Shown piece by piece: positions 15,268 through 54,680 of a DNA stretch of 64,000 bases. This DNA is from Butyrivibrio sp. NC3005 (GTDB lineage: Bacteria; Bacillota; Clostridia; Lachnospirales; Lachnospiraceae). The notes beneath the pieces were generated by a model. The model searched no databases. It was not told where the DNA came from and saw only the letters and a list, made by a program, of their open reading frames with translations. The stretch is taken from NCBI RefSeq assembly GCF_000424545.1, contig NZ_AUKC01000013.1, forward strand, positions 1 through 64,000, read 5' to 3'. Position 1 is the first letter of the stretch. Every line of letters starts with the position of its first letter. A program made the position numbers and the translations under genes.

Positions 15268-15539
15268 TATAGATTTTTGTCACTTCGTTCCAAAAACTAA
15301 GCAAACTGGCCATTAAAAAAAGGCTTCGCCTTGGACCAGTTTGCTACTTGATTTTTATTCTCACGAAACTCGCAGTAAATGCGAGTTTCTGAATGTAAGT
15401 GACAAGAAGTCATGACTTTTTGCTGAGATTTATGATAATCATCAGCAAGAATATTGCTTTTTTGGACAAAATTTCTCTTGACGACAAATTTTGGTCTGGT
15501 ACGGTTCTTGATTTTCCTGATGGAAACAATAACCTATTG
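15268..15539 (+). repeat. Modular palindromic repeat, copy R1 (modules A-B-C-D-E-F-G)
   Basis: Non-coding chain of hairpins between the esterase and helicase genes. In order: end motif A (atagatttttgtcac, 15269); hairpin B with stem GCAAACTGG/CCAGTTTGC and inner AAGGC-TTC-GCCTT (15301-15344); hairpin C, AAACTCGCA/TGCGAGTTT (about 15363-15390); palindrome D around CAAGAAGTCATGACTT (about 15400-15420); hairpin E, TGCTGA/TCAGCA (15421-15447); hairpin F, CAAAATTT/AAATTTTG (about 15461-15495); hairpin G, GGTTCTTG/CAATAACC with one mismatch (15503-15534). The same modules recur at 34.6, 50.6, 52.0 and 54.0 kb. A 64-codon frame here (15399-15593) is repeat sequence, not a gene. Confidence 0.9.
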
Positions 15540-15624
15540 TATAAAAACAAGTGCAGCAGGAATTATTACGTTTTTTATATTGAAGGAAAGTGATAGTTGT
15601 TGCTACTGAAGGGAGTTTGTAGCT

Positions 15625-18600
15625 TTGGAATGGGAAGAATATTTTAGTGACGATATTTTAAAAAGAGGAAAAGAGTACTTTGAAAAAGAAAAAGTAAAAA
15701 GATTCGAGGTAGATGACAAAGAAAAATCCTGTCAGGCAAAGGTACTAGGAACTCACATATATAATGTCAAGATTAAAAAAAGTAAATATGGTTATGATTT
15801 TGAATGTGATTGTGAGAATTCCAAAAACTTTCATTGCAAACATATGGCAGCAGTAATGTATAAGTGGTCATATACTAGTCTGGAAGATTTGAATGAGGAG
15901 TATGGGTTTGAGTCTGATAAGGATAGCTTCTTTTTTAATATAAAAAAAATAGTAAAATCTGAAAAAGATTTTTCATATTCTGATTTTGAAGAGGCTAAAG
16001 AGTTAATAGATAAAGGAAAGATTGAACTTACCGAAGTTGAAGATCATTCTCTAAATAATGGAATTACCGGTATAAATGTTCTAAGGCTTCAAGGAACATA
16101 TCATAATAGCTTAGCAAGCTATGATGTTAGTGCTACTATATCTCAAGATAAGATTATTTTATCAAACTGTAATTATTGTAATTATGATATTCCAAATATA
16201 TTTTTTAATTCAGGTTCAAAATGCAAACATATTTTAGCCCTGATTCTTTTAGCTGACAATTATATTGCAAAATATAATCCCGGTGATGCAACAGATTATG
16301 CAGGAAGTAGTTTATTGCAGAAATATAAAAATATACGTGGAATAAAGAAAATAGACGATGACATAACAAGAACGAATCTTGTTAGAATCGTTCCAAAGGT
16401 TTCAGTTGACAGTAAGGCTCAAATGTCTGTTTGTTTTAAAGCTGGTATTGAAAAACTCAATATTATTAAAAATGTTCCTGAGTTTATTGAGGCAAGAGAA
16501 AAGTTTAAAGTAATAGATCTTGCAAAGAATAATACTATTTCTTTTATGGATTACGATTTAACTGTGGAAGCATCAAAGTATTTTGATTTTATGCTCGAGT
16601 CAAAAAGATTGGATGAATATGTTAGAGAACAAGTTACAAGGCTTGTTTCATCTTTGTATGATTTTTCATTAAAAAAAGCGCCTAAACAAAAGATAAATCT
16701 GACATCTGAACTTATAGATAAGTTTTATGATATATCTGAAAATACTTATGTAGAGTTTTCAAGTGAAGGTGCAGGTAATCAAAGCGTATTTTTTGGAAAA
16801 AAAGATATAAGAGCAAGTGTTATTGTAGATAAAGTTATTGATGAAAAAGGAAATTTTGCCTATGCAAATGTAATAGTTAAAATGCCTCTTCTATTTAAGG
16901 GAAACGAGTACAATTATTTTTTTGATGAAGATGATGGCCTTTTCTCAAGAGTTGATGAACTTTCCGAGGAATTTATGCTATTGTTTGAATTTGCCAAAGA
17001 CGGAAATACAAGCTTTAGAATTGGTAAAAAGAGATTATCCGAGTTTTATTACCGAATACTACCTCAACTAATGGATGCGCCTGATATTGAGGTTCAGATA
17101 ACTGATCGTGAAGTATTGGAAGAAAATCTTCCGCCGCAGTGCCGGATTGTTTATTATCTAGATGCGGACGACGACATTTTAAAAGCCAGAGCCGTAGCTT
17201 TATATGGTGATAAGGAATTTCAGGTTCGTGTAGCTGCTGAACAGGAATATCCGCTTCCACAAGATAGAGATATAGAATATGAGCAGTCAGCTTTAGACGT
17301 TTTGATGCGCTATTTTCCACATAATGAAAAGGGAGATGATTTTTGTTATTCTTATAAAAGGAGTGACGTTATATACGAAATTCTGGAAGAGGGATTAAAG
17401 GAATTAATGTCAGTTGGTGAGGTCAAGGCAACTGATGAGTTTAACCGACTAAGAATAAGGAAGACTCCAAAGGTGAGCATTGGTGTATCTATTTCTAATG
17501 GTATTCTGGATCTTGATATACAAACTGATGATATGTCTTCAGAGGAGCTGCTTGAACTGCTTGAAAGTTATCGTAAGAAAAAGAAATATCATATACTTAG
17601 AAATGGTGAGTTCATACGTCTTGAGCGAGAGAATACTATTGAAGAACTTAATGCTACAATGCAATCAATGGGAATTTCTGCAAAAGAGTTTACAAAAGGA
17701 AAACTTCATCTTCCTTTGTATCGTTCATTATATATAAATAAGCTATTGGAAGAACATGACGAAATAGCAGCAAAGAGAGATAAGAATTTCAAGAATCTAA
17801 TAAGAAATTTTAATGAAGTTAAAGATTCGGATTTTGAAGTTCCAGAGAGCCTGTCCAATACTTTGAGAGAATATCAGGCATATGGATTTAAGTGGCTTAC
17901 GACATTATCAGAATTGGGCTTTGGAGGAATACTGGCTGATGACATGGGACTTGGTAAGACCCTACAGGTTATAACCTTTCTTCTTTCTCGTAAGGAAATA
18001 GAAAAGGAAAATGGAAAAAATATTTCAGCTCTTATTGTGTGTCCTGCTTCTCTTGTTTATAACTGGGAAGAAGAGTTTAAGAAATTTGCTCCATCTATAG
18101 ATGTTAAGACAGTAACCGGTAGTACTTCTGAAAGAAAAAAGCTTCTGTCAGCCCAAAAGCTTCCTGAAGTTTTGGTGACTTCATACGATTTATTAAAGAG
18201 AGATATTGGGTTATATGAAGAACATAAATTTGACTATGAAATAATTGATGAAGCACAGTACATAAAGAATCAAACTGCTGCCGTAAGTAAGGCTGTAAAA
18301 GTTATAAAGAGTAATCAAAGATTTGCACTTACAGGTACACCAATAGAGAACAGACTTAGTGAGCTTTGGAGTATTTTTGATTATCTAATGCCGGGATTTC
18401 TATATACCTATGATAGATTCAAAACTGATTTTGAGAATAGCATCACCAAAGATAAGGATGAGAATGCTATTAATCAGTTAAAAAATATGGTAAGTCCGTT
18501 TATATTAAGAAGACTTAAAGAAAATGTTTTAAATGATTTGCCTGAGAAAATCGAAGAAATTAGATTTTCAAAATTTGAGAGTAAGCAAAGAAAACTATAT

Positions 18601-19257
18601 GATGCACAAGTTACACATATGAAAAAAATACTTACAAGTAAGGAATATAGCGCTGGTAAAGATAAGATTAAAGTATTGGCTGAACTGACCAAGATAAGAG
18701 AAATCTGCTGTGATCCAAGTCTTATTACAGAAGGATATACAGGTGATTCGGCTAAGAGACTTTCTTGTATGCAGCTTATTGAGAGTGCGATTGATGGAGG
18801 TCATAAAATCCTTCTTTTCTCACAGTTTACATCCATGCTCGAACTGTTGGAAAAAGATTTACAAAGTGCAGGTATAGAGTATTACAAGATAACTGGTCAA
18901 ACACCTAAAGAAGATAGAGTAAAACTGGTACATGCTTTTAATAAAAATGAAATACCGGTTTTCCTTATTTCGCTAAAAGCTGGCGGAACCGGACTCAACC
19001 TTGTAGGCGCCGATGTAGTAATACACTATGATCCATGGTGGAATCTTGCAGCCCAAAATCAGGCAACAGACAGAGCGCACCGAATGGGCCAGAAAAAGAA
19101 AGTATCTGTATTTAAGCTTATAGCAAAAGATACTATTGAAGAGAAAATCGTTGAAATGCAGAATGCAAAGAAAGATTTGGCAGATGCAATTTTGAACGGT
19201 GAAAGTGAATCTCTTATGAGTATGAGTAAAGAACAGCTTATAGAACTCTTAGGGTAA
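15625..19257 (+). CDS. SWIM zinc-finger SNF2-family helicase
   Basis: Cytoplasmic ATP-dependent DNA translocase of 1210 aa. A SWIM zinc motif is visible near the N-terminus (Cys61, Cys63, Cys71, His73 in CDCENSKNFHCKH), with a second SWIM-like CKH near residue 200. The middle is the SNF2-associated region. The SNF2 ATPase core begins about residue 740: Walker A in ADDMGLGKT near 772-780, Walker B IIDEAQYIKN near 875, LTGTPIENRLSELWSIFDYL, and the C-terminal helicase motifs GGTGLNLVGADVVIHYDPWW and QATDRAHRMGQ. The length and layout are usual for Firmicutes members, whose physiological role is not settled. The start is TTG with the site gaaggga; MEWEEYFSDDIL matches family N-termini. The stop codon touches repeat copy R2. 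Confidence 0.92.
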   Translation: MEWEEYFSDDILKRGKEYFEKEKVKRFEVDDKEKSCQAKVLGTHIYNVKIKKSKYGYDFECDCENSKNFHCKHMAAVMYKWSYTSLEDLNEEYGFESDKDSFFFNIKKIVKSEKDFSYSDFEEAKELIDKGKIELTEVEDHSLNNGITGINVLRLQGTYHNSLASYDVSATISQDKIILSNCNYCNYDIPNIFFNSGSKCKHILALILLADNYIAKYNPGDATDYAGSSLLQKYKNIRGIKKIDDDITRTNLVRIVPKVSVDSKAQMSVCFKAGIEKLNIIKNVPEFIEAREKFKVIDLAKNNTISFMDYDLTVEASKYFDFMLESKRLDEYVREQVTRLVSSLYDFSLKKAPKQKINLTSELIDKFYDISENTYVEFSSEGAGNQSVFFGKKDIRASVIVDKVIDEKGNFAYANVIVKMPLLFKGNEYNYFFDEDDGLFSRVDELSEEFMLLFEFAKDGNTSFRIGKKRLSEFYYRILPQLMDAPDIEVQITDREVLEENLPPQCRIVYYLDADDDILKARAVALYGDKEFQVRVAAEQEYPLPQDRDIEYEQSALDVLMRYFPHNEKGDDFCYSYKRSDVIYEILEEGLKELMSVGEVKATDEFNRLRIRKTPKVSIGVSISNGILDLDIQTDDMSSEELLELLESYRKKKKYHILRNGEFIRLERENTIEELNATMQSMGISAKEFTKGKLHLPLYRSLYINKLLEEHDEIAAKRDKNFKNLIRNFNEVKDSDFEVPESLSNTLREYQAYGFKWLTTLSELGFGGILADDMGLGKTLQVITFLLSRKEIEKENGKNISALIVCPASLVYNWEEEFKKFAPSIDVKTVTGSTSERKKLLSAQKLPEVLVTSYDLLKRDIGLYEEHKFDYEIIDEAQYIKNQTAAVSKAVKVIKSNQRFALTGTPIENRLSELWSIFDYLMPGFLYTYDRFKTDFENSITKDKDENAINQLKNMVSPFILRRLKENVLNDLPEKIEEIRFSKFESKQRKLYDAQVTHMKKILTSKEYSAGKDKIKVLAELTKIREICCDPSLITEGYTGDSAKRLSCMQLIESAIDGGHKILLFSQFTSMLELLEKDLQSAGIEYYKITGQTPKEDRVKLVHAFNKNEIPVFLISLKAGGTGLNLVGADVVIHYDPWWNLAAQNQATDRAHRMGQKKKVSVFKLIAKDTIEEKIVEMQNAKKDLADAILNGESESLMSMSKEQLIELLG

Positions 19258-19480
19258 GTGACAAAAAGTCATAGTTTTTGGGTTTGATGATTGTATAGAT
19301 GAGTTTTGATGGCTTGTAATATTTCATGAGCAGAACTGTTTATAAACGTTGGTACTTAGGTTCTGTTTTTTAGAACCTTATGTACCATTACGTTTATAAT
19401 CAAGCGAAAGCGTGTCTGCGACGAAATATACAAACAACAAAACGGATTACATGAAATAAAAAACTATAGATTTTTGTCAC
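19258..19480 (+). repeat. Modular palindromic repeat, copy R2 (H module with short apex)
   Basis: Begins directly after the helicase stop codon and ends 9 bp before the stop codon of the convergent lipoprotein gene. It is bounded by inverted ends gtgacaaaaagtcatag and ctatagatttttgtcac. Inside is the long imperfect hairpin H: cttgtaatatttc pairs with gaaatatacaaac, GCAGA with TCTGC, TTTATAAACG with CGTTTATAA. The apex is GGTAC/GTACC enclosing AGGTTCT-gttttttAGAACCT. Its place between convergent genes would suit a bidirectional terminator. Confidence 0.88.
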
Positions 19481-19489
19481 TTCCATCCC

Positions 19490-20230
19490 TTACTTCTTGA
19501 CGGTTGAATAGCCAATAACCTCTGCGTTTTCCATTTCATCTAGAAGGCTATTATATATTTTTTCTGCATCTTCGCTGCTTACAGAATCTTTTTTTGATCC
19601 GTCATCTGATTCATAGTGATAAGTTTCGTTTCCGTCTTTATCATATTCAACACTTACTTTTTCCATTATCATGAGCTTATTGTCTGTAAGAGAATATTTG
19701 CAGACAAAATGGTTGCCTCCTGTATAAAGCTTGCCGTCTTTTATCGACAATGGATAAGCTGTTCCGCCAGAGCATACCTTGCCGACTTCTACGATAACAG
19801 AATCCTTATACATGAAAATTGTAGAATCGATTGAGGCAAAGTTTCCATCCTGATTGTCATAGGTTCCGCTGCTTACAAGAAGAACATCCGTTCCATCTAT
19901 GTTAGCATTAGCATAACCCATTCCATCTGTAAGCTTTTTATCTACTATCTGAGTAAAAGTATCACAGCCGGAAATATCTATATTAGGAGCTGTTTCTTCT
20001 TCCATATCTGCTTTTTCAGAAGATGTATTAGTGCTTGATGAATCAGAAGATTCTTCATTAGAAGCTTTGGTGTTTAAGTCAGAGCTTTTAGTTGCTGATT
20101 CATTTGAAGCAGTAATCTGTGTAGATGAATTACTTGTTGAAATGTTTTGGTCATTTTCACTGTTTTTACAACCTGCAAGTGAAAATACCATTATTCCCAT
20201 AAGGGATAGTACTAACAGTCTTTTTTTCAT
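19490..20230 (-). CDS. Small secreted lipoprotein, function unknown
   Basis: Predicted lipoprotein of 246 aa. The signal peptide MKKRLLVLSLMGIMVFSLAGC ends in a lipobox, so Cys21 would be lipidated. Residues about 25-75 are a Ser/Thr/Asn/Glu-rich linker, followed by a compact domain (DISGCDTFTQIVDKKLTDGM onward) rich in beta strands with VLLVSSGTYDNQDG and GKLYTGGNHFVCKYSL. I do not recognise a family. Two starts lie four residues apart (MVMKK): the second is preferred because AAAGGAG then has a 7-nt spacing. A promoter is visible upstream. Confidence 0.7.
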   Translation of the reverse strand: MKKRLLVLSLMGIMVFSLAGCKNSENDQNISTSNSSTQITASNESATKSSDLNTKASNEESSDSSSTNTSSEKADMEEETAPNIDISGCDTFTQIVDKKLTDGMGYANANIDGTDVLLVSSGTYDNQDGNFASIDSTIFMYKDSVIVEVGKVCSGGTAYPLSIKDGKLYTGGNHFVCKYSLTDNKLMIMEKVSVEYDKDGNETYHYESDDGSKKDSVSSEDAEKIYNSLLDEMENAEVIGYSTVKK

Positions 20231-20563
20231 AACCATTCTCCTTTGCTTTTTTAGTCACATATTTTAATTGTATCATGTATAAGATAAAACTCAATTCATT
20301 GTTATATACAAATAAAAGGTTATGTCTTTCAAATCTCATTCCGATAAACTATGTGAAATAGTAAAAACGTTGTTGAAAGCTAGGTAAATAACTTTATTTA
20401 TTAGTTTTCAAAAAGTAAAATTACCAGCTTTTTATCAGGCAACAAATGCACCATACAACTGATATTCGATGTTTTATTTTTACAGGTAGTAAATTAAAAA
20501 CAAGGATGTTAGGTTGCTGCATAAACAGCAACATGGCGTGGATTAGCAGAAAGGAGGACACAG
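20231..20563. other. Divergent intergenic region upstream of the flagellar cluster
   Basis: Holds the minus-strand promoter above and the leader of the fliK operon. A short hairpin GTTGCTG/CAGCAAC (20513-20532) lies about 30 bp before the fliK start. I see no convincing sigma-70 or sigma-28 promoter for fliK and no riboswitch that I can recognise. Confidence 0.5.
20267..20294 (-). promoter_or_regulatory. Probable sigma-70-type promoter of the lipoprotein gene
   Basis: On the minus strand TTGAGT, 16 bp, TACAAT, lying about 40 bp before the start codon of the gene at 19490-20230. Confidence 0.55.
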
Positions 20564-22192
20564 ATGCCTACGAAAGTTCAAGGAGGTACCGATGTCTTTT
20601 CATTTGCGCAATTGACTGATCCTGCAAAAGAATGGATGGAACCAGGAATGGATATTCCAAGTTTTGGACAGACTATAGCTCAGGTAAAAGAGTCATTTAA
20701 AAGCGCTTCGGCAAAGACACAGCAGATATCTTCAAAATCAAATGCTCAGGGCGTTATGCAAAAACAAAGACTGGATTTAAATAATACCGAAAAAAATACA
20801 GACTCTAATAATAAATCCAAAAATCTCGATGCAGGTAGTTTATCAAAGACAGACCAAAGGCAATTGGTAAAGAACAAGACAGTTCAGGTAACAGATAAAA
20901 CCGCTGACACTCAAACAGATTATTCAAAGGATGATTTTATCTCGGAAGATTTGGAAAAAGCAGGAAAAGAACTTGTTGAGAAAATTGCTAAAGAGTTTGG
21001 AATTGATAGTGCACAGGTATTGGATGCAATGCAGATTCTAGGACTTGAATATGAAAGCCTTTTGCAAATTGACAATCTAAAAGATTTGGTTATGACAGTA
21101 ATGGGAAGTGATGATTCTATAGATCTTCTGACAGATTCAGGATTATACGATCAGTTTAAGAAGATTTTAGAGGAATTAAGAAATGTTTTAGAAGAAATTT
21201 CTAATGGAAACGGTATTGAGGTTTCCGAACTTTCCGACATAATCAGTGAGAAAATTTTACAAAAGCATTTATCTGATTCCAAGGAAGAATTAGAATTAGC
21301 ATCTTCAGATAATGATATTTCTTTTGAAAAAGCGCTTGAAGGTATGTCAAACAAACAGGTGGTAGATGAGTCTGGAAAGAAAACTGATGTGAAAGAAAAC
21401 GACCAAAATATAGACACAGTAGTTACACCAGATAAAAAGGATACTGAAGAAGTAAAGAATATTTCTTCTGACAAAGATTTTTCGAACAAGCATGAAGAAC
21501 TTCCGGAAAATGCCAGAAAACATCAACAGTATTTGGCAGAAAAATCTAATAATGACAATGTAGAAAAGATTGAAATTAGTCAGGATAGTAATGCTTTAAA
21601 GATGAATCTTCAGACCGCAAATCCTTTTGAACAAATTTTTACAGGAATTTCTGAAGCACTTAAAGAAAATATACAATCGCAGCAGATTCAGGGAAACTAC
21701 ACAGGACATGGAGTTGATCAGAGCAGTATTTTAAAACAGATTTCTGACGCAATTAAAGTTCAGATTAAAGCTGAGGCAACATCAATGGAATTACAACTTC
21801 ATCCAGCAAGTCTTGGTAGCGTAAAGGTACTGGTACAGCAGGCTCAGGAAGGCGGACTTATAGCAAGATTTACAGCACAAAGTGATGCAGTTAAGGCAGC
21901 TCTTGAATCTCAGATTTTATCACTTCAGCAACGCTTTGATGAGCAGGGATTAAAGGTAAATGCAGTAGAAGTAACAGTGGATGCACATGCATTTGAGCAG
22001 AATCTTGAGCAAAACAGGCAGTCAGATGCGCAGATGCAGGAGCGTAAGAATTCATCATCTAGTAAAAATAGGAGAATTAATCTTGCTGATCTGGACCTTT
22101 CTTTGGAGGATGGCAAGGAGCTAGATGACGATGAACGCATTGCTAAAGAAATGATGAAAGCAAACGGTAGCACCATCGACTACATGGCATAG
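20564..22192 (+). CDS. fliK: Flagellar hook-length control protein FliK
   Basis: Secreted ruler that measures hook length and switches the export gate (through FlhB) from hook to filament substrates. The protein is 542 aa. The N-terminal two thirds is polar, low in complexity and variable, as expected for a ruler. The C-terminal Flg_hook domain (about residues 400-485) is clear: LQLHPASLGSVKVLVQQAQE, GGLIARFTAQSDAVKAALES and LKVNAVEVTVD. It is the first gene of the flagellar run, just before flgD, the usual order. The site aaaggagg decides the start. Confidence 0.92.
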   Translation: MPTKVQGGTDVFSFAQLTDPAKEWMEPGMDIPSFGQTIAQVKESFKSASAKTQQISSKSNAQGVMQKQRLDLNNTEKNTDSNNKSKNLDAGSLSKTDQRQLVKNKTVQVTDKTADTQTDYSKDDFISEDLEKAGKELVEKIAKEFGIDSAQVLDAMQILGLEYESLLQIDNLKDLVMTVMGSDDSIDLLTDSGLYDQFKKILEELRNVLEEISNGNGIEVSELSDIISEKILQKHLSDSKEELELASSDNDISFEKALEGMSNKQVVDESGKKTDVKENDQNIDTVVTPDKKDTEEVKNISSDKDFSNKHEELPENARKHQQYLAEKSNNDNVEKIEISQDSNALKMNLQTANPFEQIFTGISEALKENIQSQQIQGNYTGHGVDQSSILKQISDAIKVQIKAEATSMELQLHPASLGSVKVLVQQAQEGGLIARFTAQSDAVKAALESQILSLQQRFDEQGLKVNAVEVTVDAHAFEQNLEQNRQSDAQMQERKNSSSSKNRRINLADLDLSLEDGKELDDDERIAKEMMKANGSTIDYMA

Positions 22193-22230
22193 ACATTTTA
22201 GCCTAGCTTTCATCGGAAAGGATGTATTTT

Positions 22231-23121
22231 ATGTCAGTTTCAGCGATTGTCAACGAGAATGGAGAAATAGTCAATAATAGTGATCCTAAAAAAGCTAAAG
22301 GGATACAGGATAGTACAGGTACTTCTATTAAAGATTATAAAGATCAGTTCATGCAGCTATTAGTAGCACAGATGAAGTATCAGGATCCTCTTGAACCAAC
22401 TTCAAACACCGAATATATTTCCCAGTACGCTCAGTTTACACAGGTTGAACAGATGCAGAATATGGCAGATGCAATGGCTCTGTCCAGAGCAGCTGATCTT
22501 GTAGGTAAGACTGTTCAGATTACTAAGGTTGATGACGAGGGTAATAGCAGAATAGTGGCAGAAGGCAAGGTTGACTATGTAACTTATCAGCATGGAGATG
22601 CATATGTAACAGTGAACGGTGTATCTTATAATGCAGATCAGGTATCTTCTGTTATAGATTCGACATACTCTAATGATACCAAGAGCCTTATGGAAATTCA
22701 GGAAATATTAGCTAAGCTTCCACCGGTAGAAGAAATTACTCTTGCCGCTAATGAAAAAGATCTTGAGAAGCTTGTTAACAAGTACAACAGCCTTAGCGAT
22801 ATAGAAAAATATCTTACAGATGCTCAGATTGCCAAGATAAAGGATTATGCTACAAAATATGCAGCTTTAGTAGTAGAAGAGACGGCTAGTAATGCGGCAA
22901 AAGAGCGTGAAAGACAAAATGAAAATGCGGTTTCACAAAACACAGGAACACAAGCGAATACAGAAGAAACATCGCAAAGTCAAGAAACTCAGAACCAGGG
23001 AACAAATGTTAATGCAGTAGAACAGGCTCAAGATAATACAGATAACAATAGCGCTGCAGATACTAATGAAGAACAGGCACAAGAAGCAACTGGTTCTACG
23101 CAGGCTCCTCAAGGGTCATAA
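22231..23121 (+). CDS. flgD: Flagellar hook-capping protein FlgD
   Basis: Scaffold at the tip of the growing hook that lets FlgE subunits assemble. The protein is 296 aa. The conserved N-terminal motif is present (FMQLLVAQMKYQDPLEPTSN, then EYISQYAQFTQVEQMQNM). The middle holds the FLgD-type domain (LVGKTVQI, VNGVSYNADQVSSV). The C-terminal 70 residues are an unusual Gln/Asn/Thr/Glu-rich tail. The start at 22231 is chosen over 22222 because the ggaaagga site is then 9 nt away. Confidence 0.93.
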   Translation: MSVSAIVNENGEIVNNSDPKKAKGIQDSTGTSIKDYKDQFMQLLVAQMKYQDPLEPTSNTEYISQYAQFTQVEQMQNMADAMALSRAADLVGKTVQITKVDDEGNSRIVAEGKVDYVTYQHGDAYVTVNGVSYNADQVSSVIDSTYSNDTKSLMEIQEILAKLPPVEEITLAANEKDLEKLVNKYNSLSDIEKYLTDAQIAKIKDYATKYAALVVEETASNAAKERERQNENAVSQNTGTQANTEETSQSQETQNQGTNVNAVEQAQDNTDNNSAADTNEEQAQEATGSTQAPQGS

Positions 23122-23163
23122 AAATTTACAAAAAGAGATATTTAAAAAACTAATGCAGTAAAT

Positions 23164-23196
23164 GGTCATGGGATGAATAAGCTTTGTCCCATGACC
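23164..23196 (+). promoter_or_regulatory. Perfect 10-bp hairpin before the flagellar operon protein
   Basis: GGTCATGGGA pairs perfectly with TCCCATGACC across a 13-nt loop. It ends 5 nt before the agaggg ribosome binding site of the next gene, so it may tune translation or protect the mRNA end. There is no T tract, so it is not a terminator. Confidence 0.5.
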
Positions 23197-23211
23197 AGAA
23201 AAGAGGGAATG

Positions 23212-23619: not shown

Positions 23620-23628
23620 ACCCTTTTT

Positions 23629-23668
23629 CATGAAACTTGCATCAAATGCAAGTTTCTAGAATAAAGGC
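23629..23668 (+). promoter_or_regulatory. Hairpin after the flagellar operon protein gene
   Basis: GAAACTTGCA pairs with TGCAAGTTTC across a 5-nt loop, with a partial outer CCTTT/AAAGG stem. The shape and loop are like hairpin C of the modular repeats (GAAACTCGCA / TGCGAGTTTC), so it may be a diverged relative. Confidence 0.5.
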
Positions 23669-23695
23669 AATAAAGTAAGTATAAAAAAGGAGTTA

Positions 23696-33536: not shown

Positions 33537-34644
33537 GCTTTCCTACAATCTACAGTTCTTTGCAAAAGAAGGCCCTGGCGGTGAGAAAACCGAAGAGCCT
33601 ACTTCTAAACGTCTTGGTGATGCCAGAAAAAAAGGTCAGGTAGCCAAGAGTCAGGAGATAACTGTAGCTGCTGATTTGTTTGCTTTTTTTATATTGCTAA
33701 AAGTTTTTTCAGATATCCTTGGTAACAGAATAATAAATATTTTTAGAAGGTCTTATAACGATATTCCAGATCATATGAAGCAAATTAATGGAAGAATGCC
33801 GTTTAAGACCATGCATACAGAACTTGTAAGAATACTTTTGGAGGTATTGATTACAGCTGCACCTTTTTTTATAGCAGGTGTGGTGCTGGCTCTTTTGTGT
33901 AATTACATTCAGTTTGGATTTAAGGTTGTAACAGAACCATTGAAGCCAAAGCCTGATAAGTTTAATCCTATCAATGGTCTTAAGAGAATTTTTTCAATGC
34001 AGTCTATCTTTAATCTTATTAAATCTCTTTTGAAAATAACATTGATAAGTGCGATGGTGTTTATAACACTTACCAGAAGAAAAGAGTCAATTTTTCTACT
34101 ATATGGAATATCGCTTAATCAGGGAATCTCTCTTATGTGGGATATCATGATTGAAGTAGGAATACGATGTGCGGCAGTTTATATGATAGTGGCATTTATA
34201 GATTTCGTTTATCAGAAACATAAATTCCACGAAGATATGAAGATGACTAAACAGGAAGTAAAGGATGAATATAAAGACTCTGAAGGTGATCCTCAGATAA
34301 AGGCAAAGCAGAAACAGAAAATGCGTGAGCAGTCAATGCGAAGGATGATGAAAGAATTGCCAAAGGCAGATGTAGTAATCACTAACCCAACGCATATAGC
34401 TGTTGCACTAAGTTACCATGAAGGAGAAGATATAGCCCCTAGAGTAGTAGCTAAAGGAGAAGATTTCCTTGCGAAGAAAATTAAAGACGCTGCTAAAGAA
34501 CATGGAATTGAAATTGTAGAAAACAAACCACTAGCCAGAATGCTCTATGCAAACGTTGACGTAAACGAATTCATACCACCAGAACTTTATAAAGCAGTGG
34601 CAGAAGTACTCGCATACGTATATAAGCTTAAAGGCAAGGTATGA
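33520..34644 (+). CDS. flhB: Flagellar export switch protein FlhB
   Basis: Membrane protein of 374 aa that controls substrate specificity of export and responds to FliK. The N-terminal cytoplasmic motif EEPTSKRLGDARKKGQVAKS is typical, four transmembrane helices follow, and the cytoplasmic domain contains the self-cleavage site NPTH at residues 289-292 (cut between Asn289 and Pro290). The start at 33520 is set by CAGGAG seven bases upstream; a TTG two codons earlier is weaker. The stop codon lies inside the D palindrome of repeat copy R3, so the repeat supplies the end of the reading frame. Confidence 0.95.
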   Translation: MDYSLRLSYNLQFFAKEGPGGEKTEEPTSKRLGDARKKGQVAKSQEITVAADLFAFFILLKVFSDILGNRIINIFRRSYNDIPDHMKQINGRMPFKTMHTELVRILLEVLITAAPFFIAGVVLALLCNYIQFGFKVVTEPLKPKPDKFNPINGLKRIFSMQSIFNLIKSLLKITLISAMVFITLTRRKESIFLLYGISLNQGISLMWDIMIEVGIRCAAVYMIVAFIDFVYQKHKFHEDMKMTKQEVKDEYKDSEGDPQIKAKQKQKMREQSMRRMMKELPKADVVITNPTHIAVALSYHEGEDIAPRVVAKGEDFLAKKIKDAAKEHGIEIVENKPLARMLYANVDVNEFIPPELYKAVAEVLAYVYKLKGKV

Positions 34645-34786
34645 CTTCTTGTCACTTACATTCAGAAACTCGCATTTACTGCGAGTTTCGTGAGAACAAA
34701 AGTCAAGTGGCAAACTGGTCCAAGACGAAGCCTTTTCAAATGGACAGTTTGCGTAGTTTTTGGAACGTAGTGACAAAAAACTATAG
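34641..34786 (+). repeat. Modular palindromic repeat, copy R3 (modules D-C-B-A)
   Basis: Begins in the last codon of flhB with half palindrome D (atgacttcttgtcac), then hairpin C (AAACTCGCA / TGCGAGTTT), hairpin B (CAAACTG / CAGTTTG with GTCC/GGAC and a damaged AAGAC-GAA-GCCTT tip) and end motif A (gtgacaaaaaactatag). The orientation is opposite to R1. It lies within the flagellar run, between flhB and flhA. Confidence 0.88.
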
Positions 34787-47082: not shown

Positions 47083-47099
47083 ATTGTAGATGAGGTTGA

Positions 47100-48692
47100 A
47101 TGATGAACGGTTATTTTCAATTGGTAGCAGGAAAAAACGGAACAGCAATTAAAGTTTTTAGAGGAACAAATGGAGACCCGGATGCTACAGCCAGGGAGAT
47201 TACTGAATATCTACATGTAAATGGTCTTGATTTTAATCCGACCGCACTCGACAATGCAATAAGAAAAGGTGACGGAGAACCGGTTGATATTATAGCAACT
47301 GCGCTTGAAAAACCGATTCCTGAATCTTTTGATATTGATATGTCGTTGGATCAGATGGAAGTTACAGTCCGTTTCTATCCTCCTTCAGAAAATGGACCTG
47401 AAATCGATTCTGAAAAAGTGATTTCAACCTTAAATCAGAAAAAAATAGTATTTGGAATTGACGAACAAGCGATTAATAGTTATTTTAATGATAGAAAGTA
47501 TTGTACTAATTATGTTGTTGCTAAAGGTATCCCGACTAGAGAAGGTCAAGATGCCAAGATAACATTTTCTTTTGATACAAATTTGCGTATTCATCCAGAG
47601 ACAAGAGAAGACGGAAGCGTAGATTATTATAATCTTAATCTTATTAATCATTGCAAAAAAGGCGATGTGCTAGCAACTCTTACTCCAGCAGATATGGGTG
47701 AGGGTGGCTGTAATGTTCTAGGAGCAAAAACAAGACCCAAAAATGTTAAGTCGATGTCGCTAAAAGGCGGAAAAAATGTTACAATGTCAGAAGACAAACT
47801 TACTTTGACTGCTGATGTTGATGGGCATGTTTCTTTGCAGGAAGGTAAAGTTGTTGTTTCTAATGTACTCAGTTTAAAAGAAGTAGACCTTTCTACAGGT
47901 AATATAGTATATGATGGCTCTGTTGAGATAGCAGGAAGTGTTGCCAGCGGTTTTAAGGTTGAAGCAGGTGGCAATATTCAAGTAAAAGGTAATATTGAAG
48001 GGGCTCATTTGAAAGCCGCAGCTGATGTTATTATAGAGCGCGGTGTTAACGGAATGGGTGAAGGTGTTATCGAAGCAGGCGGAAACATCGTAACGAAGTT
48101 TATTGAAAATGCTAAGGTTTATGCAGTAGGCAGTGTTGTTGCCGGTTCAATTATTAATTCTCACGTTGAATCAGGAACCGAAATTACGGTTAATGGAAAA
48201 AGAGGAAATATAGTAGGTGGACATGTTGTTGCCGCTGAGAAGATTACAGCTAAGGCACTAAGTAATGACATGGGCACTAATACAATTATAGAAGTTGGCG
48301 CAGATCCACAGCTTAAAGCAAAGATTCGTGATACTATGAAATTTATCACAGACAGTACCAAACAGCTTCAGCAGATTCGCCCAACACTGGATGCTTTTGT
48401 TAAAAAAGTCAAGTCAGGAGTTAAACTTACAAAAGAACAGATGGAATATGCTAGAAAACTATCTGATATCAATTCAAATCTGACTAAGAGTCTCGACGAA
48501 CAGACAGAAGCTCTTACAACAATGCAGGATCAGTTATCACAGACTATGGATGCAAGTGTTGCTGTAGAAGGCATATGCCATTCTGGTGCAACAATCGTTA
48601 TTGGAGATGTATCCATGGTTGTTAAGAATGATATAAAGTTTAGTAGATTTGTTAGAAAAGATGGAGAAGTTAAGATTGCACCGCTTTCGTAA
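47100..48692 (+). CDS. DUF342 (FapA-like) domain protein
   Basis: Predicted cytoplasmic protein of 530 aa. The N-terminal half matches DUF342 (FapA) proteins: FYPPSENGPEIDSEKV, then KKGDVLATLTPADMGEGGCN and the CNVLGAKTR turn. The middle is a right-handed beta-helix of short repeats (VEAGGNIQVKGNIEGAHLKA, VIEAGGNIVTKFIENAKVYA). The C-terminal third is a coiled coil (about 400-490). Such genes often follow fliA in Clostridia, but the function is not settled. ATG is possible at 47100 or 47103; the second has the better spacing to GAGG. Confidence 0.8.
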   Translation: MMNGYFQLVAGKNGTAIKVFRGTNGDPDATAREITEYLHVNGLDFNPTALDNAIRKGDGEPVDIIATALEKPIPESFDIDMSLDQMEVTVRFYPPSENGPEIDSEKVISTLNQKKIVFGIDEQAINSYFNDRKYCTNYVVAKGIPTREGQDAKITFSFDTNLRIHPETREDGSVDYYNLNLINHCKKGDVLATLTPADMGEGGCNVLGAKTRPKNVKSMSLKGGKNVTMSEDKLTLTADVDGHVSLQEGKVVVSNVLSLKEVDLSTGNIVYDGSVEIAGSVASGFKVEAGGNIQVKGNIEGAHLKAAADVIIERGVNGMGEGVIEAGGNIVTKFIENAKVYAVGSVVAGSIINSHVESGTEITVNGKRGNIVGGHVVAAEKITAKALSNDMGTNTIIEVGADPQLKAKIRDTMKFITDSTKQLQQIRPTLDAFVKKVKSGVKLTKEQMEYARKLSDINSNLTKSLDEQTEALTTMQDQLSQTMDASVAVEGICHSGATIVIGDVSMVVKNDIKFSRFVRKDGEVKIAPLS

Positions 48693-48763
48693 CTGGCAAA
48701 TCCTTTTTTCTGACAGAAATTTAAAACAATTGAAGACTGCAGGGGAATGCGAGGAGGAGCTAT

Positions 48764-50593
48764 ATGCAGATGGGAGCTATTGTATTGGCTGTAATCGGTA
48801 TTGCGGCAATTGTCCTAAGCTTTATTATTCCGGCCGATAAAGGCTTGGAAAAAGGCAGCAAAAAGGACATGGAGGCTGCTGTACACAAGGCTGTGCAGCG
48901 TAGTATTGAGGATTCACAAAGCATAATTCAGCAAAGAATCAATGATCAGATAGAAGAGTCATTGATTAAAACTGAGCGCGGAATGGACAGAATTACAAAT
49001 GAGAAGATGAGTGCAATCGGTGAATATGCTGAAAATGTGATGAGTGACATCAAGAAAAATCATGATGAAGTAATGTTCATGTATGATATGCTAAGCGACA
49101 AGCATAAAAATCTTACTTCGACAGCTTCAGAAGTTGCAAAGACTGAGAAAAAAGCAAGACAGACAGTGTTAGATGCAGAGTTAACGGCTAAAGAAGCCAG
49201 AGAAGCTGCAAGTTCGCTTGCTATGCAGGCTGCGCAGAATCAGACCGCAGCACCAAACTTAAAGAGAGCAAGAACTGCTGTAAGTGATGAAGGGGTTCAG
49301 CTTGGAAGCAGACGTGTTATTATGCCTCAGGCACCTAGTCAGGGGCCATCAAACAGACAGGCTCAGAAGCTTGATGAAGAAATAAAGAAACAAAGAAAAA
49401 AGATTTCAGGAGTAAGCGGCAAAGGATTTGTATTTGATAGCGGCGATCCTGATTTGAGTTTTCATGATTCTGCAGCATCAGATTTTTTTGGTTCGATAGG
49501 GGAAGAAGAACAAATCTACGAAGAACAGGTACCAGTTAATCCTGTTTCAAACGATAATATTCCAGAGTTAAGTAAAGAAGATAAAGTTAGAAATCGTATT
49601 GCACAGTTCCAAAGAGCACATCAAAAAACAGCATTTGCAACGGGTAAAACACCTGCTACTAATGCAAATGCTCAAAGAAGTGTTGAAAAAAGTTCTGCAA
49701 GTGCAAGAGTTGCATACAATACCGAATCAAGACCTGAGCAAACAGAAGCAATGCTAAGAAATGCTGTTGCTACTGCAAGTGCTTTTGGTAATAAAAAAGA
49801 AGTTGATGAAGAAACAATTAAAAACGTGGCAGCAAAAGCCAAGGTGGCAAGTTCTTCTAGACAGAATCAGGAACCTGCTGTTTCTTCTAAAGTTACTACA
49901 GAAATTCAGGGAAAAGGGAAAACAGCTCCTAGCCAGCAAAGAAAGACAAGTACAGATTCTATTGCAAGGCAATCACAACAGTCCATTAATAGAATTAAAG
50001 ATCAGGCAGCTGCACAGGTTAGAGAATTTGCCGGTGAAGATGCAAATCTAAATAGAGTGCAGAAGACTTTCGATGTCGAGATGAGCGATGATATTGAAGG
50101 TTCTTATGAATATGATGATGATCTTACACAGACAGTTGATGATGTAAGAAATGAAGAATTTGTTCCGCTTAAAGAAGAAAAACATTACTCACAAAAGCAG
50201 CTCAATGAGCAGTTTGCAAGAGTGTTCGGAGACGTTGCTTTGCCAAATCAAAATCAGGAAGAGGATACGGAAGATATAGATGATGTTAAGCAGGTAGCAA
50301 AGCATGTAATGACTTATGAGGAAGAACTAGCCAGCATTCCTGAGAGACCTCTTAGAAGAAGAGCTCAGACCCCGCTTCCAAAAGAAGCTGTTGTACCTGA
50401 AGATTTCTTTGACGATGTTATGGATGGGGTAGAAACAGTAGATACTTTGGATGAAAAGGCAAGAAGAAGCGAACAGATTCTTGAAATGCATAAACAGGGA
50501 AAATCCAATATAGCCATAGCAAGGGAATTGGGGCTTGGAGTTGGTGAAGTTGGATTAATGATTGAAATAGCTACTAAGAATCGACGCATGTAG
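48764..50593 (+). CDS. DUF6115-like membrane-anchored coiled-coil protein
   Basis: Protein of 609 aa, last gene of the flagellar run. One N-terminal transmembrane helix (GAIVLAVIGIAAIVLSFII) is followed by a long helical region (about residues 35-160) rich in Glu, Lys and Gln, then a long low-complexity, mostly acidic middle (about 160-545). The final 40 residues, ILEMHKQGKSNIAIARELGL then GVGEVGLMIEIA, look like a helix-turn-helix and are the recognisable DUF6115 end. Proteins of this type lie at the end of many clostridial flagellar operons with no known role. The extended middle makes it unusually long. The site gaggagg sets the start. Confidence 0.65.
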   Translation: MQMGAIVLAVIGIAAIVLSFIIPADKGLEKGSKKDMEAAVHKAVQRSIEDSQSIIQQRINDQIEESLIKTERGMDRITNEKMSAIGEYAENVMSDIKKNHDEVMFMYDMLSDKHKNLTSTASEVAKTEKKARQTVLDAELTAKEAREAASSLAMQAAQNQTAAPNLKRARTAVSDEGVQLGSRRVIMPQAPSQGPSNRQAQKLDEEIKKQRKKISGVSGKGFVFDSGDPDLSFHDSAASDFFGSIGEEEQIYEEQVPVNPVSNDNIPELSKEDKVRNRIAQFQRAHQKTAFATGKTPATNANAQRSVEKSSASARVAYNTESRPEQTEAMLRNAVATASAFGNKKEVDEETIKNVAAKAKVASSSRQNQEPAVSSKVTTEIQGKGKTAPSQQRKTSTDSIARQSQQSINRIKDQAAAQVREFAGEDANLNRVQKTFDVEMSDDIEGSYEYDDDLTQTVDDVRNEEFVPLKEEKHYSQKQLNEQFARVFGDVALPNQNQEEDTEDIDDVKQVAKHVMTYEEELASIPERPLRRRAQTPLPKEAVVPEDFFDDVMDGVETVDTLDEKARRSEQILEMHKQGKSNIAIARELGLGVGEVGLMIEIATKNRRM

Positions 50594-50600
50594 CTTCTCT

Positions 50601-50844
50601 AAATGGCCAGCTTGCGAAGGTTTTTGAACAAAGTGACAAAAATCTATAGGTTATTGTTTTTATATAGTCCGTTTTACTGTCTGTATATTTCGTCGCAGAC
50701 ACGCTTTCGCTTGATTATAAACGTAGTGATACGTAATGCGCAAAAAAACAGCGCATAAGTACCAACGTTTATAAACAGTTCTGCTCATGAAATATTACAA
50801 GCCAGTAAAACTAATCTACTAAGTATTTAAAACAATAACCTATA
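50601..50844 (-). repeat. Modular palindromic repeat, copy R4 (H nested inside G)
   Basis: Starts with half of hairpin B (aaatggccagcttgcgaag), then end motif A (gtgacaaaaatctatag). Hairpin G is split: ggttattgtttt (from 50649) pairs with aaaacaataacc (50830-50841), and the whole H module lies in its loop in reverse orientation. The H apex carries only one hairpin, GCGC-aaaaaaaca-GCGC. The copy lies between the DUF6115-like gene and the MltG-like gene, ending 8 bp before the site of the latter. Confidence 0.88.
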
Positions 50845-50860
50845 ATTATGGGAGAGTAAC

Positions 50861-51985
50861 ATGAAGTTAAAATATTATCTTAAGGGATTAGGAGCAGGGC
50901 TTTTAGTTAGTGCAGTAGCCTTTGTTCTAATTGGAAATGAAGGCAAACAAATGACAGATGCAGAAGTAATACGAAGGGCTGCAGCTCTTGGTATGACAAT
51001 GCAGGGAACGACATTATCAGGAAGCTCTTCGAACTCTGATAGTACTACCGGAAATACTAATACAGGAAATTCAGATGATACAGAAAATTTGTACGAAGAT
51101 GATTCAAAAGATGGTGCAAGAAATTCATCTGAAGAAAAGACTTTATCTGCTGCATTTGATGCGGATTTAACCTCGAATATAGTTGAAGTACCTAAGGATG
51201 ATAGCTTAGATACTAAAGAAGCAGATAAAGATGCTGGTAGTAAAACAGGAAAAGCTCAGGTTGAAAAAACAAATAAAGCTGATGCAAACAAAACAGATTT
51301 ATCTGACTCAGAAAAAACTAATAAAAATGATGTAGAGAAAACAAATAAAGCAGATAATAATAAAAAATCAGGCTCTTCTGATACGAAAGAGCCTGATTTA
51401 GGAGCATCTAAAGATAAGTATAAAAATGGTAAGGTTGAAATAACATCTGAGAAAAATGACAGTCTGTCTGAAAGTAATACTTCTGATATAAAATCTGGTA
51501 GTAAAGATACTGCTAACAAAGATGAAAAGAAAACAGAAAATAGTAGCACTGCCAATAAGACTGAAACAAAGAGTGCTGATAAAAAGACAGAAAATAAAAG
51601 TACTGAAAATGAGCAAGCAAAGAAAAACGATATTGATAGCACTGATACTAAGAATCAGAAAAAGGCTGGAAATGACCTGACAACTAATAAGTCAGAAAAC
51701 AAAACGGATAATAAAAGTACTGGAAACAGTAAAGAAGATAAAACTTCAAATGAAATCAAAAATGTGAGCATTAACACAGAAACAGTCACTGTAAAAGTTC
51801 CTGGTGGAAGCAGTTCTGAAACTGTAAGTGCAATTTTAGAAAAAGAAGGTGTAGTTTCAAGCGCAAAAGAATTTGACAATTATCTAGTAAGTAATAATCT
51901 TGATAGGTATGTAAGGTCTGGTTTGTTCACAATAAAGCCTAACTCTTCCTATAAAGATGTTGCTGCAGTTATTTGTAGGCATTGA
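50861..51985 (+). CDS. Membrane-anchored protein with C-terminal YceG/MltG-like domain
   Basis: Protein of 374 aa. A transmembrane helix near residues 8-28 (LKGLGAGLLVSAVAFVLIG) is followed by a long disordered region (about 50-300) made almost only of Lys, Thr, Asp, Ser, Asn and Glu, with repeats of KTNKAD, KTENKST and similar. The last 70 residues (VTVKVPGGSSSETVSAILEK then YVRSGLFTIKPNSSYKDVAA) resemble the LysM-like first part of MltG. The transglycosylase domain with its catalytic Glu is absent, so this is not an active MltG. It may bind cell wall. The site gggagag precedes the ATG; a large repeat follows 4 bp after the stop. Confidence 0.65.
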   Translation: MKLKYYLKGLGAGLLVSAVAFVLIGNEGKQMTDAEVIRRAAALGMTMQGTTLSGSSSNSDSTTGNTNTGNSDDTENLYEDDSKDGARNSSEEKTLSAAFDADLTSNIVEVPKDDSLDTKEADKDAGSKTGKAQVEKTNKADANKTDLSDSEKTNKNDVEKTNKADNNKKSGSSDTKEPDLGASKDKYKNGKVEITSEKNDSLSESNTSDIKSGSKDTANKDEKKTENSSTANKTETKSADKKTENKSTENEQAKKNDIDSTDTKNQKKAGNDLTTNKSENKTDNKSTGNSKEDKTSNEIKNVSINTETVTVKVPGGSSSETVSAILEKEGVVSSAKEFDNYLVSNNLDRYVRSGLFTIKPNSSYKDVAAVICRH

Positions 51986-51989
51986 AAAA

Positions 51990-52437
51990 TTATGACTTCT
52001 TGCTGAGATTTAGGATTCTTGATTTTCCTGATGAAAACAAGAACCTATAGATTTTTGTCACTGCGTTCCAAAAACTACGCAAACTGGCCATTTGAAAAGG
52101 CTTCGCCTTGGACCAGTTTGCCACTTGACTTTTGTTCTCACGAAACTCGCAGTAAATGCGAGTTTCTGAATATAAGTGACAAGAAGTCATAGATTATTGT
52201 TTTTATATAGTCCGTTTTACTGTCTGTATATTTCGTCGCAGACGCGCTTTCGCTTGATTATAAACGTAGTGGTACGTAATGCGCAAAAAAACAGCGCATA
52301 AGAATGCGGCATAATTTAAACACTTTTAAATTATGTCGTCTGCCAAAAGCAGATTTAAAGGCATTATTTATGCCTTTAAACCCCAGACCAACGTTTATAA
52401 ACAGTTCTGCTCATGAAATATTACAAGCCAGTAAAAC
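51990..52437 (-). repeat. Modular palindromic repeat, copy R5 (long composite)
   Basis: Order: part of D/E, hairpin G variant (GGATTCTTG / CAAGAACC), A, hairpin B, hairpin C, D, then half of G and a full H module in reverse orientation. The H apex is expanded into four hairpins: ATGCGC-aaaaaaaca-GCGCAT, CATAATTTAAA/TTTAAATTATG, TCTGC/GCAGA and AAAGGCAT/ATGCCTTT. It fills the space between two convergent genes. Confidence 0.9.
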
Positions 52438-52482
52438 TTCTTACTGATGACTTTTTAGAATCGCAGTAAGAAGTATTTTTTT
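52437..52482 (+). terminator. Terminator at the end of repeat R5
   Basis: CTTCTTACTG pairs with CAGTAAGAAG across about 20 nt and is followed on the plus strand by eight T. It touches the stop codon of the fucosidase gene, which it may also serve from the other side. Confidence 0.75.
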
Positions 52483-53963
52483 TATAAAAGCTCTATTTTA
52501 AAACAAATAGGTTTGTCGGTTGATGGCTTTTGATCCAAAGTAATAGATAATCCATTGTTGTCACGGCAAGATTTTGTGATTAAGTAATCGCCAAGAACTT
52601 CAACATTGGCAATTTCAAAATCATGGCTACCATTAATACAAAAAGATTTTACAAGGAAGTTATTACTGTCTGGTCGCATACAAAAGGCATAGATAAAACC
52701 GTTTTTATATGTAAATCTGTAATCGGAATTTGTGAACTTTTTTTCATCATTATCCTGAAAATAACCACCGATATTATTAACTTCGCCTTCTCCGAATTTT
52801 TTCCATGGAGTTGTTTCGTAGATTCCATCGCCATTTGTTTTCATCCACTGTCCGATTTCCTTCAAGACATCAGTTTCTTCATCAGTTATTGTACCATCTG
52901 ATTTTGGACCTACATTAAGGAGTAGCATACCATTTTTGCTGACGATATCTATAAGGTCACAGATTATTTGTCTTGATGATTTGAACTGGTTATCTTTGGT
53001 ATATCCCCATGAATACTTGCCGATTGCAGTATCTGTCTGCCAAGGTATTGGAGAGATTCCAGTTAGAGCACCGCGTTCTACATCGAAAGTTGCTACAGTC
53101 GGAGGAAAAGCTTCATGTTTGTAGTTAATGGTTACTTCTTTGCCCCATTCCTCAGCTCTGTTATAGTAGTAAGCACACAATTTCTTTAAATACGGCTTGA
53201 ATGCAACATTTTGAATCCACCAGTCAAAATATAGAATGGAAGGTTTGTAGTTGTCGATTAATTCACAGGTTCTGACAAGCCAGTCATTAAGCCATTCTTT
53301 AGTTGGTTGTATAGGCGAAAGTGCATCATCTGTTGTTGAACCAAGTTTTGCCGTTGATAACTCTTCACAATAAAAGGCAGGTCCATAGAAGTCTCTATAC
53401 TTCTCATCATTCACGTCGCTTTCAATTGTTCGTCCCATGTTCATGAAAAAATAGTGTTCAGCTCTATGAGATGAAGCACAAAAGGTAAGACCTGACTTAT
53501 CGCATGCTTTTTTGATTTCTCCTGCAATATCTTTGCAGGGACCCATTTTAACTGAATTCCACTTGTTGAAGACTGTGTCGTACATTGCAAATCCGTCATG
53601 ATGTTCGCAGGCAGGCATTACATATTTTGCGCCAGCTTCTTTGAATAACGAAATCCATTCCTCGGCGTTGAATTTCTCGCCTTTGAAAAAAGGAATGAAA
53701 TCCTTGTATCCAAAATCTTTATGATTTCCAAAATGTTCTTTATGAAATTCATATTCTCTTTGGCCTTTGTCATACATGTTCCTGGGATACCATTCGTTTG
53801 CAAATGCTGGAACGCTGTAAATTCCCCAATGAATGAAGATTCCAAACTTGGCCTTGTAATACCAATCCGGTACCTTGTGGTTGGATAAGGAAGACCAGGT
53901 GTCCTTGTAACGTCCCTTTTCAATTGTCTTGTTGATTAATTTTAGATACTCTTCATGATTCAT
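52482..53963 (-). CDS. Alpha-L-fucosidase, glycoside hydrolase family 29
   Basis: Retaining fucosidase of 493 aa that removes terminal alpha-L-fucose from glycans. GH29 features: WYYKAKFGIFIHWGIYSVPA, NEWYPRNMY, YVMPACEHHDGFAMYDT, the nucleophile Asp247 in SILYFDWWIQN, and KNGMLLLNVGPKSDGTI. A C-terminal beta domain covers about residues 390-493. There is no signal peptide, so it acts in the cytoplasm on imported oligosaccharides. No transporter or fucose pathway gene is adjacent. The start has aggggt eight bases upstream. Both flanks are modular repeats. Confidence 0.92.
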   Translation of the reverse strand: MNHEEYLKLINKTIEKGRYKDTWSSLSNHKVPDWYYKAKFGIFIHWGIYSVPAFANEWYPRNMYDKGQREYEFHKEHFGNHKDFGYKDFIPFFKGEKFNAEEWISLFKEAGAKYVMPACEHHDGFAMYDTVFNKWNSVKMGPCKDIAGEIKKACDKSGLTFCASSHRAEHYFFMNMGRTIESDVNDEKYRDFYGPAFYCEELSTAKLGSTTDDALSPIQPTKEWLNDWLVRTCELIDNYKPSILYFDWWIQNVAFKPYLKKLCAYYYNRAEEWGKEVTINYKHEAFPPTVATFDVERGALTGISPIPWQTDTAIGKYSWGYTKDNQFKSSRQIICDLIDIVSKNGMLLLNVGPKSDGTITDEETDVLKEIGQWMKTNGDGIYETTPWKKFGEGEVNNIGGYFQDNDEKKFTNSDYRFTYKNGFIYAFCMRPDSNNFLVKSFCINGSHDFEIANVEVLGDYLITKSCRDNNGLSITLDQKPSTDKPICFKIELL

Positions 53964-54038
53964 GATTTTTTACCCCTAAGATTATTTTTACTATACATAC
54001 TTTATTATAAGACATCTTGAATAAAACAGCAGAAATAT

Positions 54039-54306
54039 ATAGGTTATTGTTTTCATCAGGAAAATCAATAACCGTACCAGACCAAAATTTGTCGTCAAGA
54101 GAAATTTTGTCCTGCGAAGCAGGATTCTTGCTGATGATTATCATAAATCTCAGCAAGAAGTCATGACTTCTTGTCAATTTCATTCAGAAACTCGCATTTA
54201 CTGCGAGTTTCGTGAGAACAAAAGTCAAGTGGCAAACTGGTCCAAGGCGAAGCCTTTTCAAATGGCCAGTTTGCGTAGTTTTTGGAACGCAGTGACAAAA
54301 ATCTAT
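54039..54306 (-). repeat. Modular palindromic repeat, copy R6a (full G-F-E-D-C-B-A chain)
   Basis: The most regular copy, the reverse complement of R1. Hairpin G is perfect (GGTTATTGTTTT / AAAATCAATAACC type), F is AAAATTT/AAATTTT, an extra hairpin TCCTGC-GA-AGCAGGA type (54111-54124) follows, then E (TTGCTGA / TCAGCAA), D (CAAGAAGTCATGACTTCTTG, a perfect 20-bp palindrome), C, B with an intact AAGGC-GAA-GCCTT tip, and A. Confidence 0.92.
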
Positions 54307-54680
54307 ACTTTATTGTTACTTATATTTGATAAATGAGTTTTGCTGGCTTGTAATATTTCATGAGCAGAACTGTTTATAAACGTTGGTTTTTGGGGTTAAA
54401 AGGCATCAATGATGCCTTTTAATCTGCTTTTGGCAGACGACATAATTTAAAAGTGTTTAAATTATGCCGCATTCTTATGCGCTGTTTTTTAGCGCATTAC
54501 GAACCATTACGTTTATAATCAAGCGAAAGCACGTCTGCGACGAAATATACAAACAGCAAAACGGACTATATATTGACGAAAAACTATAGGTTATTGTTTT
54601 CATCATGAAAATCAATAACCGTACTAGACCAAAAATTGTTGTTAAGACAAATTTTGTCCTGCGAAGCAGGATTCTTGTTG
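54307..54680 (+). repeat. Modular palindromic repeat, copy R6b/c (H with long apex, then G-F)
   Basis: Directly abuts R6a. The H module is in the same orientation as R2 with the expanded apex of R5: AAAAGGCATCA/TGATGCCTTTT, TCTGC/GCAGA, CATAATTTAAA/TTTAAATTATG and ATGCGC-tgttttttA-GCGCAT. It is followed by a second hairpin G (ggttattgttttcatcatg...), hairpin F and the TCCTGC/GCAGGA hairpin (to 54672). Confidence 0.9.

Follow-up and report, generated by a model that had tools for sequence, protein, structure and literature searches.

The BOX, RUP, and SPRITE repeats of pneumococcus are described as parasitic non-autonomous elements in PMC3049150, and a role in host gene expression is hypothesised for REP repeats in PMC3733652. 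The repeats that are the focus of this study were found in a stretch of 64,000 nucleotides from Butyrivibrio sp. NC3005 (NZ_AUKC01000013.1, positions 1 to 64,000; referred to as the window). Butyrivibrio are common rumen bacteria. The finding is more than a local repeat: these are probably MITE-like elements with a structured core that extends across a bacterial family, and with an unusual manner of joining.

Element types in the window and in the source genome

The six repeat regions proposed by the first-pass annotation exist, at coordinates that were right to within a few bases; its eight hairpin modules are instead three element types with exact ends (A, B, and C; Table 1). Type A was ~142 bp long and type C 124 bp, while type B ranged between 195 and 282 bp (a short form of 195 bp, and one of ~281 bp with extra inner hairpins). 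When folded as DNA, A formed three hairpins, the first of them nested, C formed four hairpins, and B folded into a branched stem in which inner hairpins were optional; A and C folded far better than their shuffles on both strands. The window contained four full copies and one truncated copy of A, two full and two damaged copies of C, and four copies of B, one of them truncated.

Table 1. Copies of the three element types, by position and strand in the window.
Type	Description	Position	Strand
A	full length, joined at CA/TG to adjacent C	15270..15412	-
C	full length	15413..15536	-
B	short form, between two solitary 14-base ends	19272..19466	+
A	isolated, between flhB and flhA; first bases TGA are the present flhB stop	34642..34783	+
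A	truncated, right part only	50601..50646	+
B	short form, adjoining truncated A	50647..50842	-
C	internal deletion	51993..52047	-
A	full length	52048..52189	-
B	long form, inner hairpins present, outer end missing	52190..52438	-
C	full length	54040..54163	+
A	full length	54164..54305	+
B	long form	54306..54586	+
C	without right part	54587..54681	+

All element ends, when read inward, conformed to TR-NN-TTNTTG, with exact ends and inverted similarity on both sides. Shared inverted ends recurred at the edges of copies, as previously noted, but the commonest was just one of several (TGACTTCTTG, TAGATTTTTG, TAGGTTATTG, and TACTTTATTG). In 11 of 28 B copies, one end was the exact inverted copy of the other, compared with 4.0 after shuffling, a difference that kinship of the copies can inflate. 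The alignment of B copies (A3) contained 28 of 30, L026 and L135 having been dropped because their left ends were shifted, and that of C copies (A4) 37 of 47 distinct copies; in alignment helix 1, column pair 7-30 was AU in 16, CG in 9, UA in 4, and other in 8.

The solitary ends around the short B copy (19258-19271 and 19467-19480) would together make up a 28-base end palindrome, and an end pair resembling this one was also found elsewhere in the source genome (G000:C24:52139-52166). The solitary ends around B could represent an excision scar and re-insertion site. Among the other genes of the window, a Cas12a gene lies within 2062-7121 (TIGR04330, 1233 bits), with five CRISPR-like repeats of ~37 bases coming after it at 6832-7121, and a gene for an SNF2-type helicase of 1210 aa occupies 15625-19257 between two element regions (best NCBIfam match pilus_reg_Snf2, below cut-off).

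In the source genome (3.87 Mb, 93 contigs), the 16-mer GTGACAAAAATCTATA occurred 142 times with up to two mismatches, versus 8 times for the reversed control. At E<=1e-3, at least 46 matches to A, at least 46 to C, and at least 57 to B were obtained by scoring 40 of 187, 40 of 219, and 40 of 142 first-look candidates, respectively. The modules were abundant and thus not absent elsewhere in the genome. Over 621,641 bases, the end motif was counted 406 times, compared with 49 for a single Markov draw. Elements covered 14,250 of 463,791 bases (3.1%) in a sample made up of the window and twenty stretches partly picked at known copies. Several contigs of the source genome start or end inside elements (C12:1, C42:1, C47:1, and C56:1) and some tandem copies contain N gaps, suggesting that the assembly breaks at elements.

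The avoidance of genes and the position at gene ends, both put forward by the first-pass annotation, held for the 61 element blocks of this sample: with genes called by a simple ORF scorer, 13 blocks were in convergent, 35 in codirectional, and 3 in divergent gaps, 7 were at sample edges, and only 3 overlapped ORFs, all small predicted ones (gaps of at least 30 nt numbered 26, 185, and 21, respectively). The median distance from an element was 16 nt to a stop codon and 84 nt to a start codon. This position at gene 3'-ends favors RNA elements at mRNA ends (terminators, or processing or stability hairpins) kept for host gene expression, as do the stable folds and the terminator-like sites in 50400-54800 (5, four of them inside elements, versus 2.1 with an sd of 1.7 after shuffling). 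On the other hand, such elements are at odds with the lack of a clear orientation bias relative to codirectional genes: the two orientations were balanced in A (12/11) and nearly so in C (13/9), and B gave 16/6 with split hits counted more than once.

Insertion site and joining of elements

Flanks were analyzed for 112 full-length A and C copies, i.e., 224 ends. Insertion was precise, between the A and T of a YATR site, and without a duplication of TA or longer: free left flanks ended in YA in 43 of 51 cases, and 45 of 47 free right flanks started with TR. Around the 22 isolated copies, direct repeats of 4 bp or 8 bp were not found (one of these copies was counted twice through a contig overlap), and equal flanking dinucleotides were no commoner than chance (12/22 versus 10.8 after shuffling).

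More than half of the ends (126/224) adjoined another end. Among the end-to-end junctions, 116 had a gap of 0, none had a gap of 1, 2, 4, 5, 6, 9, or 10 nt, and those of 3, 7, or 8 nt amounted to four altogether; these counts are not fully independent, since whole arrays might be duplicated together. Of the ten pairings possible between A and C ends, eight were observed, indicating that joining was independent of orientation. Therefore, the earlier proposal that the repeats insert into each other was correct in so far as they join edge to edge, but not in the sense of interruption, since the DNA examined contained no candidate for an A or C copy interrupted by a second element. The proposal of non-autonomous mobile units was supported by these exact junctions, the defined ends, and the many near-identical copies.

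A single clean empty site was available, at flhB, where the comparison relatives were 53-70% identical in FlhB. FlhB now ends at the TGA supplied by the A copy at 34642, which separates flhB from flhA. When the flanks were rejoined without the element, they read AAG GTA/TAG, with a stop directly after codon 376, and a stop at this position was also present in 28/28 relatives having both genes (a 29th locus was without flhB). A duplication of TA would imply five further codons; since the rejoined flanks restore the stop position of the relatives, no TA duplication occurred there. This comparison of orthologous regions, recommended by the first-pass annotation, thus excluded TA, while a 2-bp duplication of AT looks the same as none and is indistinguishable from conservative insertion; no TA, 4-bp, or 8-bp duplication was found in window-type copies. 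An element after fliP in G099 gave no empty site against G059 and G041 because the intergenic flanks were unalignable with theirs.

TA was the commonest free flank (31/51 on the left and 38/47 on the right), as would suit classic TA-duplicating MITEs of the IS630/mariner type, like RUP. Nevertheless, CA-left and TG-right flanks also exist, an extra TA was never seen at junctions (0 with a gap of 2), the flhB reconstruction argues against duplication of TA, and the only DDE_3 hit in the source genome was below the cut-off, so that this origin appears extremely improbable. With inverted arms that flank a palindromic AT, junctions in both orientations, and no detectable duplication, the process appears to resemble conservative site-specific recombination.

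Type A core and its different ends

Type A is a member of a Lachnospiraceae-wide family with a covarying three-hairpin core. A covariance model (R1) was built from 24 sequences (alignment A1), comprising 5 from the source genome and 19 from 28 loci of relatives, 7 of which were not extracted (other or missing ends), while L102 and L111 were omitted from the 21 extracted. R1 matched in 55/79 genomes of the genus, with 24/79 giving no match, and in 20/392 sampled genomes of the order; eight of these lay beyond the genus: seven belonged to the same family, and one genome of another family gave a single hit. At least 120 stretches of named genomes contained a match to a DNA pattern of the core. 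The matches listed were mostly labelled Lachnospiraceae or Eisenbergiella, and further ones were from Murimonas, Coprococcus comes, Blautia schinkii, Clostridium fessum, and Hominisplanchenecus, together with records labelled only Clostridium sp., Eubacterium sp., Eubacteriales, Clostridiales, or Bacterium; some of these species are Lachnospiraceae.

Among 108 distinct sequences, 95.9% of cells in the three hairpins were paired, compared with 62.6% after shuffling and 30-38% after sliding, and 30 of the 33 pairs showed changes on both sides. (Alignment A5 drew on 94 chosen sources, was fitted to the model, and included four weak matches overlapping stronger ones on the opposite strand.) The covariance check recommended by the first-pass annotation therefore gave strong covariation of the A hairpins in a family spanning Lachnospiraceae. 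The linker CGTRAGAA and the TGATTC following it were conserved and unpaired. G-U made up 61/3296 canonical cells of the core (1.9%) versus 54/796 (6.8%) in tRNAs of the fetched loci, a control of 36 tRNAs only, with pairs as marked by ARAGORN parentheses; small as this control is, the rarity of G-U suggests that pairing is maintained at the DNA level, or on both strands. DNA hairpins with GCGAAGC-type loops are unusually stable.

Outside Butyrivibrio, the core was found inside ends of a different type, GTWACWGTTC. With these ends, 55 distinct elements carried an 8-bp duplication with up to one mismatch (39 exact), versus 0/83 pairs in a shifted control, and a simple pattern found the core in 50 of the 55. 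An IS66-like transposon of 2237 bp with a TIR of GTTACAGTTCAGAC was found in G041, a genome of the genus Butyrivibrio, with exact 8-bp duplications at two of four fetched loci; five matches of this 2.24-kb type were listed in G041. Its single ORF of 568 aa was above the cut-off for PF03050 (68 versus 23 bits) and below that for NCBIfam IS66 (129 versus 180). Based on these ends, duplications, and transposon, the relatives are most plausibly IS66-type MITEs. Four of 30 fetched IS66-type loci had inverted ends and an 8-bp duplication: the IS66-like L390 and L394 (ends GTTACAGTTC), L367 (ends GTAAGCA, another IS66 type), and L395 (AT-rich, perhaps by chance). Neither was seen within the DNA fetched for L392 and L396, two more loci with the 568-aa type. 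Short elements at L258:1640-1747 and L300:4389-4533 had GTTACTGT.C ends and exact 8-bp duplications without the core pattern, and may be additional passengers of these IS66-type ends.

The GTWACWGTTC ends with their 8-bp duplication were present in relatives outside the genus and absent from the window copies. Within the Butyrivibrio genome G008, two of the copies read had the core inside ends holding GGGGACGTATCAAATTGACTC, a third end type, and a third copy had the end type of the window. G019, of the genus, had one copy that had lost its right part and showed a left end of the window type, as well as copies with IS66-type ends. The core seems to have changed its ends, and with them probably its mobilizing enzyme.

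B and C were seen only in the source genome in limited searches, with no blastn match in 1.78 Mb of other genomes, mostly fetched through A. Two core patterns gave 0 and 0 matches in IMG/VR, B was not matched in plasmids, and C was not matched in phages. No Rfam family matched the window at the gathering score; under permissive settings, three matches below threshold fell on B (E 2.9-4.3, 14-22 bits versus gathering scores of 42-98), and the elements in loci of ten relatives gave none. Neither Rfam nor searches of the openly licensed PMC literature provided a name for the repeats, in line with the earlier view of an unrecognized family.

The covarying hairpins and the conserved unpaired linker are further points in favor of RNA elements at mRNA ends. 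However, rare G-U pairing argues against them, and exact abutting together with the 8-bp duplications in relatives indicates mobility. RNA structures, the other suggestion of the first-pass annotation, were therefore weakened by even orientation and few G-U pairs but keep the terminator-like sites in their favor, and we regard their maintenance for host gene expression as unlikely.

Mobilization and comparison with known systems

A mobilizer for the end type of the window was not found when the source genome was searched for rve, DDE_3, IS66, and Y1: rve gave three hits, one with an internal stop and two short, and IS66 one partial hit. GGGGACG repeats are associated with Y1 transposases. The ten Y1 loci of the source genome contained no A, B, or C. 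The transposases on plasmid pNP243 of B. fibrisolvens had no pair of window-type ends. For a linked gene in low-copy genomes, the ORF lists only were inspected. The search for a longer element, in which such ends would enclose a transposase gene, covered 621,641 bases and the ten Y1 loci and yielded 13 end pairs that held 19 distinct ORFs; among the 14 ORFs scanned, the only transposase genes were in L169, a locus fetched as Y1. There, at L169:9-2047 (G000:C42), two loose matches to the ends (TAACTTTTTG and TGCGTTTTTG) enclose a Y1 and OrfB_IS605 gene pair in a single copy, and this enclosure is therefore indistinguishable from chance. A related autonomous element was found only for the GTWACWGTTC relatives, with one loose single-copy candidate for the window type.

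The L169 pair, the hairpin ends, the folding of both strands, and the position at gene ends would also agree with REP/BIME-like repeats or IS200/IS605-type Y1 elements spread through single strands, and GTAG REPs likewise supply stop codons (PMC3733652). However, the ends, as read, have no GTAG or CGTC foot and are inverted and similar, and the Y1 loci are devoid of the three element types; we consider this origin very unlikely.

The repeats of the window are probably MITE-like non-autonomous mobile elements with a structured core, mobilized in trans; they are short, without a transposase gene, and present in many copies with sharp conserved ends. A trans-acting recombinase would recognize the ends, as inverted arms on either side of a central AT, and move the window copies, and the core would have been re-equipped with TRNNTTNTTG-type ends in the Butyrivibrio lineage. 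The hairpins may matter for mobility as DNA, either extruded or single-stranded, and the bias toward gene ends would reflect tolerance with no host function. More tentatively, and with some doubt, the three-hairpin core may itself be the unit of selection, a DNA-level module hitch-hiking on three or more end systems that are unrelated to each other (GTWACWGTTC of the IS66 type with an 8-bp duplication, TRNNTTNTTG at YATR with no duplication, and GGGGACGTATCA repeats), with a conservative recombinase in Butyrivibrio building arrays in either orientation at a palindromic AT core.

Across a bacterial family, a single structured interior has been conserved while the mobile ends change. The interiors of small bacterial repeats are easily taken for filler, and selection of MITE interiors for transposition is now testable. 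Furthermore, precise joining at the edges of other copies, with no duplication detectable, points to a recombination activity in Butyrivibrio.

Compared with known systems, the type A core, its length, and its hairpin order are common to the GTWACWGTTC-ended Lachnospiraceae elements, which correspond to MITEs of the (single-ORF) IS66 family, whereas the window copies differ in their ends, YATR target, lack of an 8-bp duplication, and mutual abutting. As described in PMC3049150, BOX, RUP, and SPRITE of pneumococcus are likewise short, modular or palindromic, clustered, and over-represented between convergent genes, but BOX and RUP have TIR and target duplications. GTAG/CGTC REP and RAYT-linked TIR repeats share hairpins, arrays, and the donation of stop codons to genes, according to PMC3733652; in contrast, the elements of the window are larger, have inverted ends without a GTAG/CGTC tag, and contain few of the G-T pairs that the same paper reports to be frequent.
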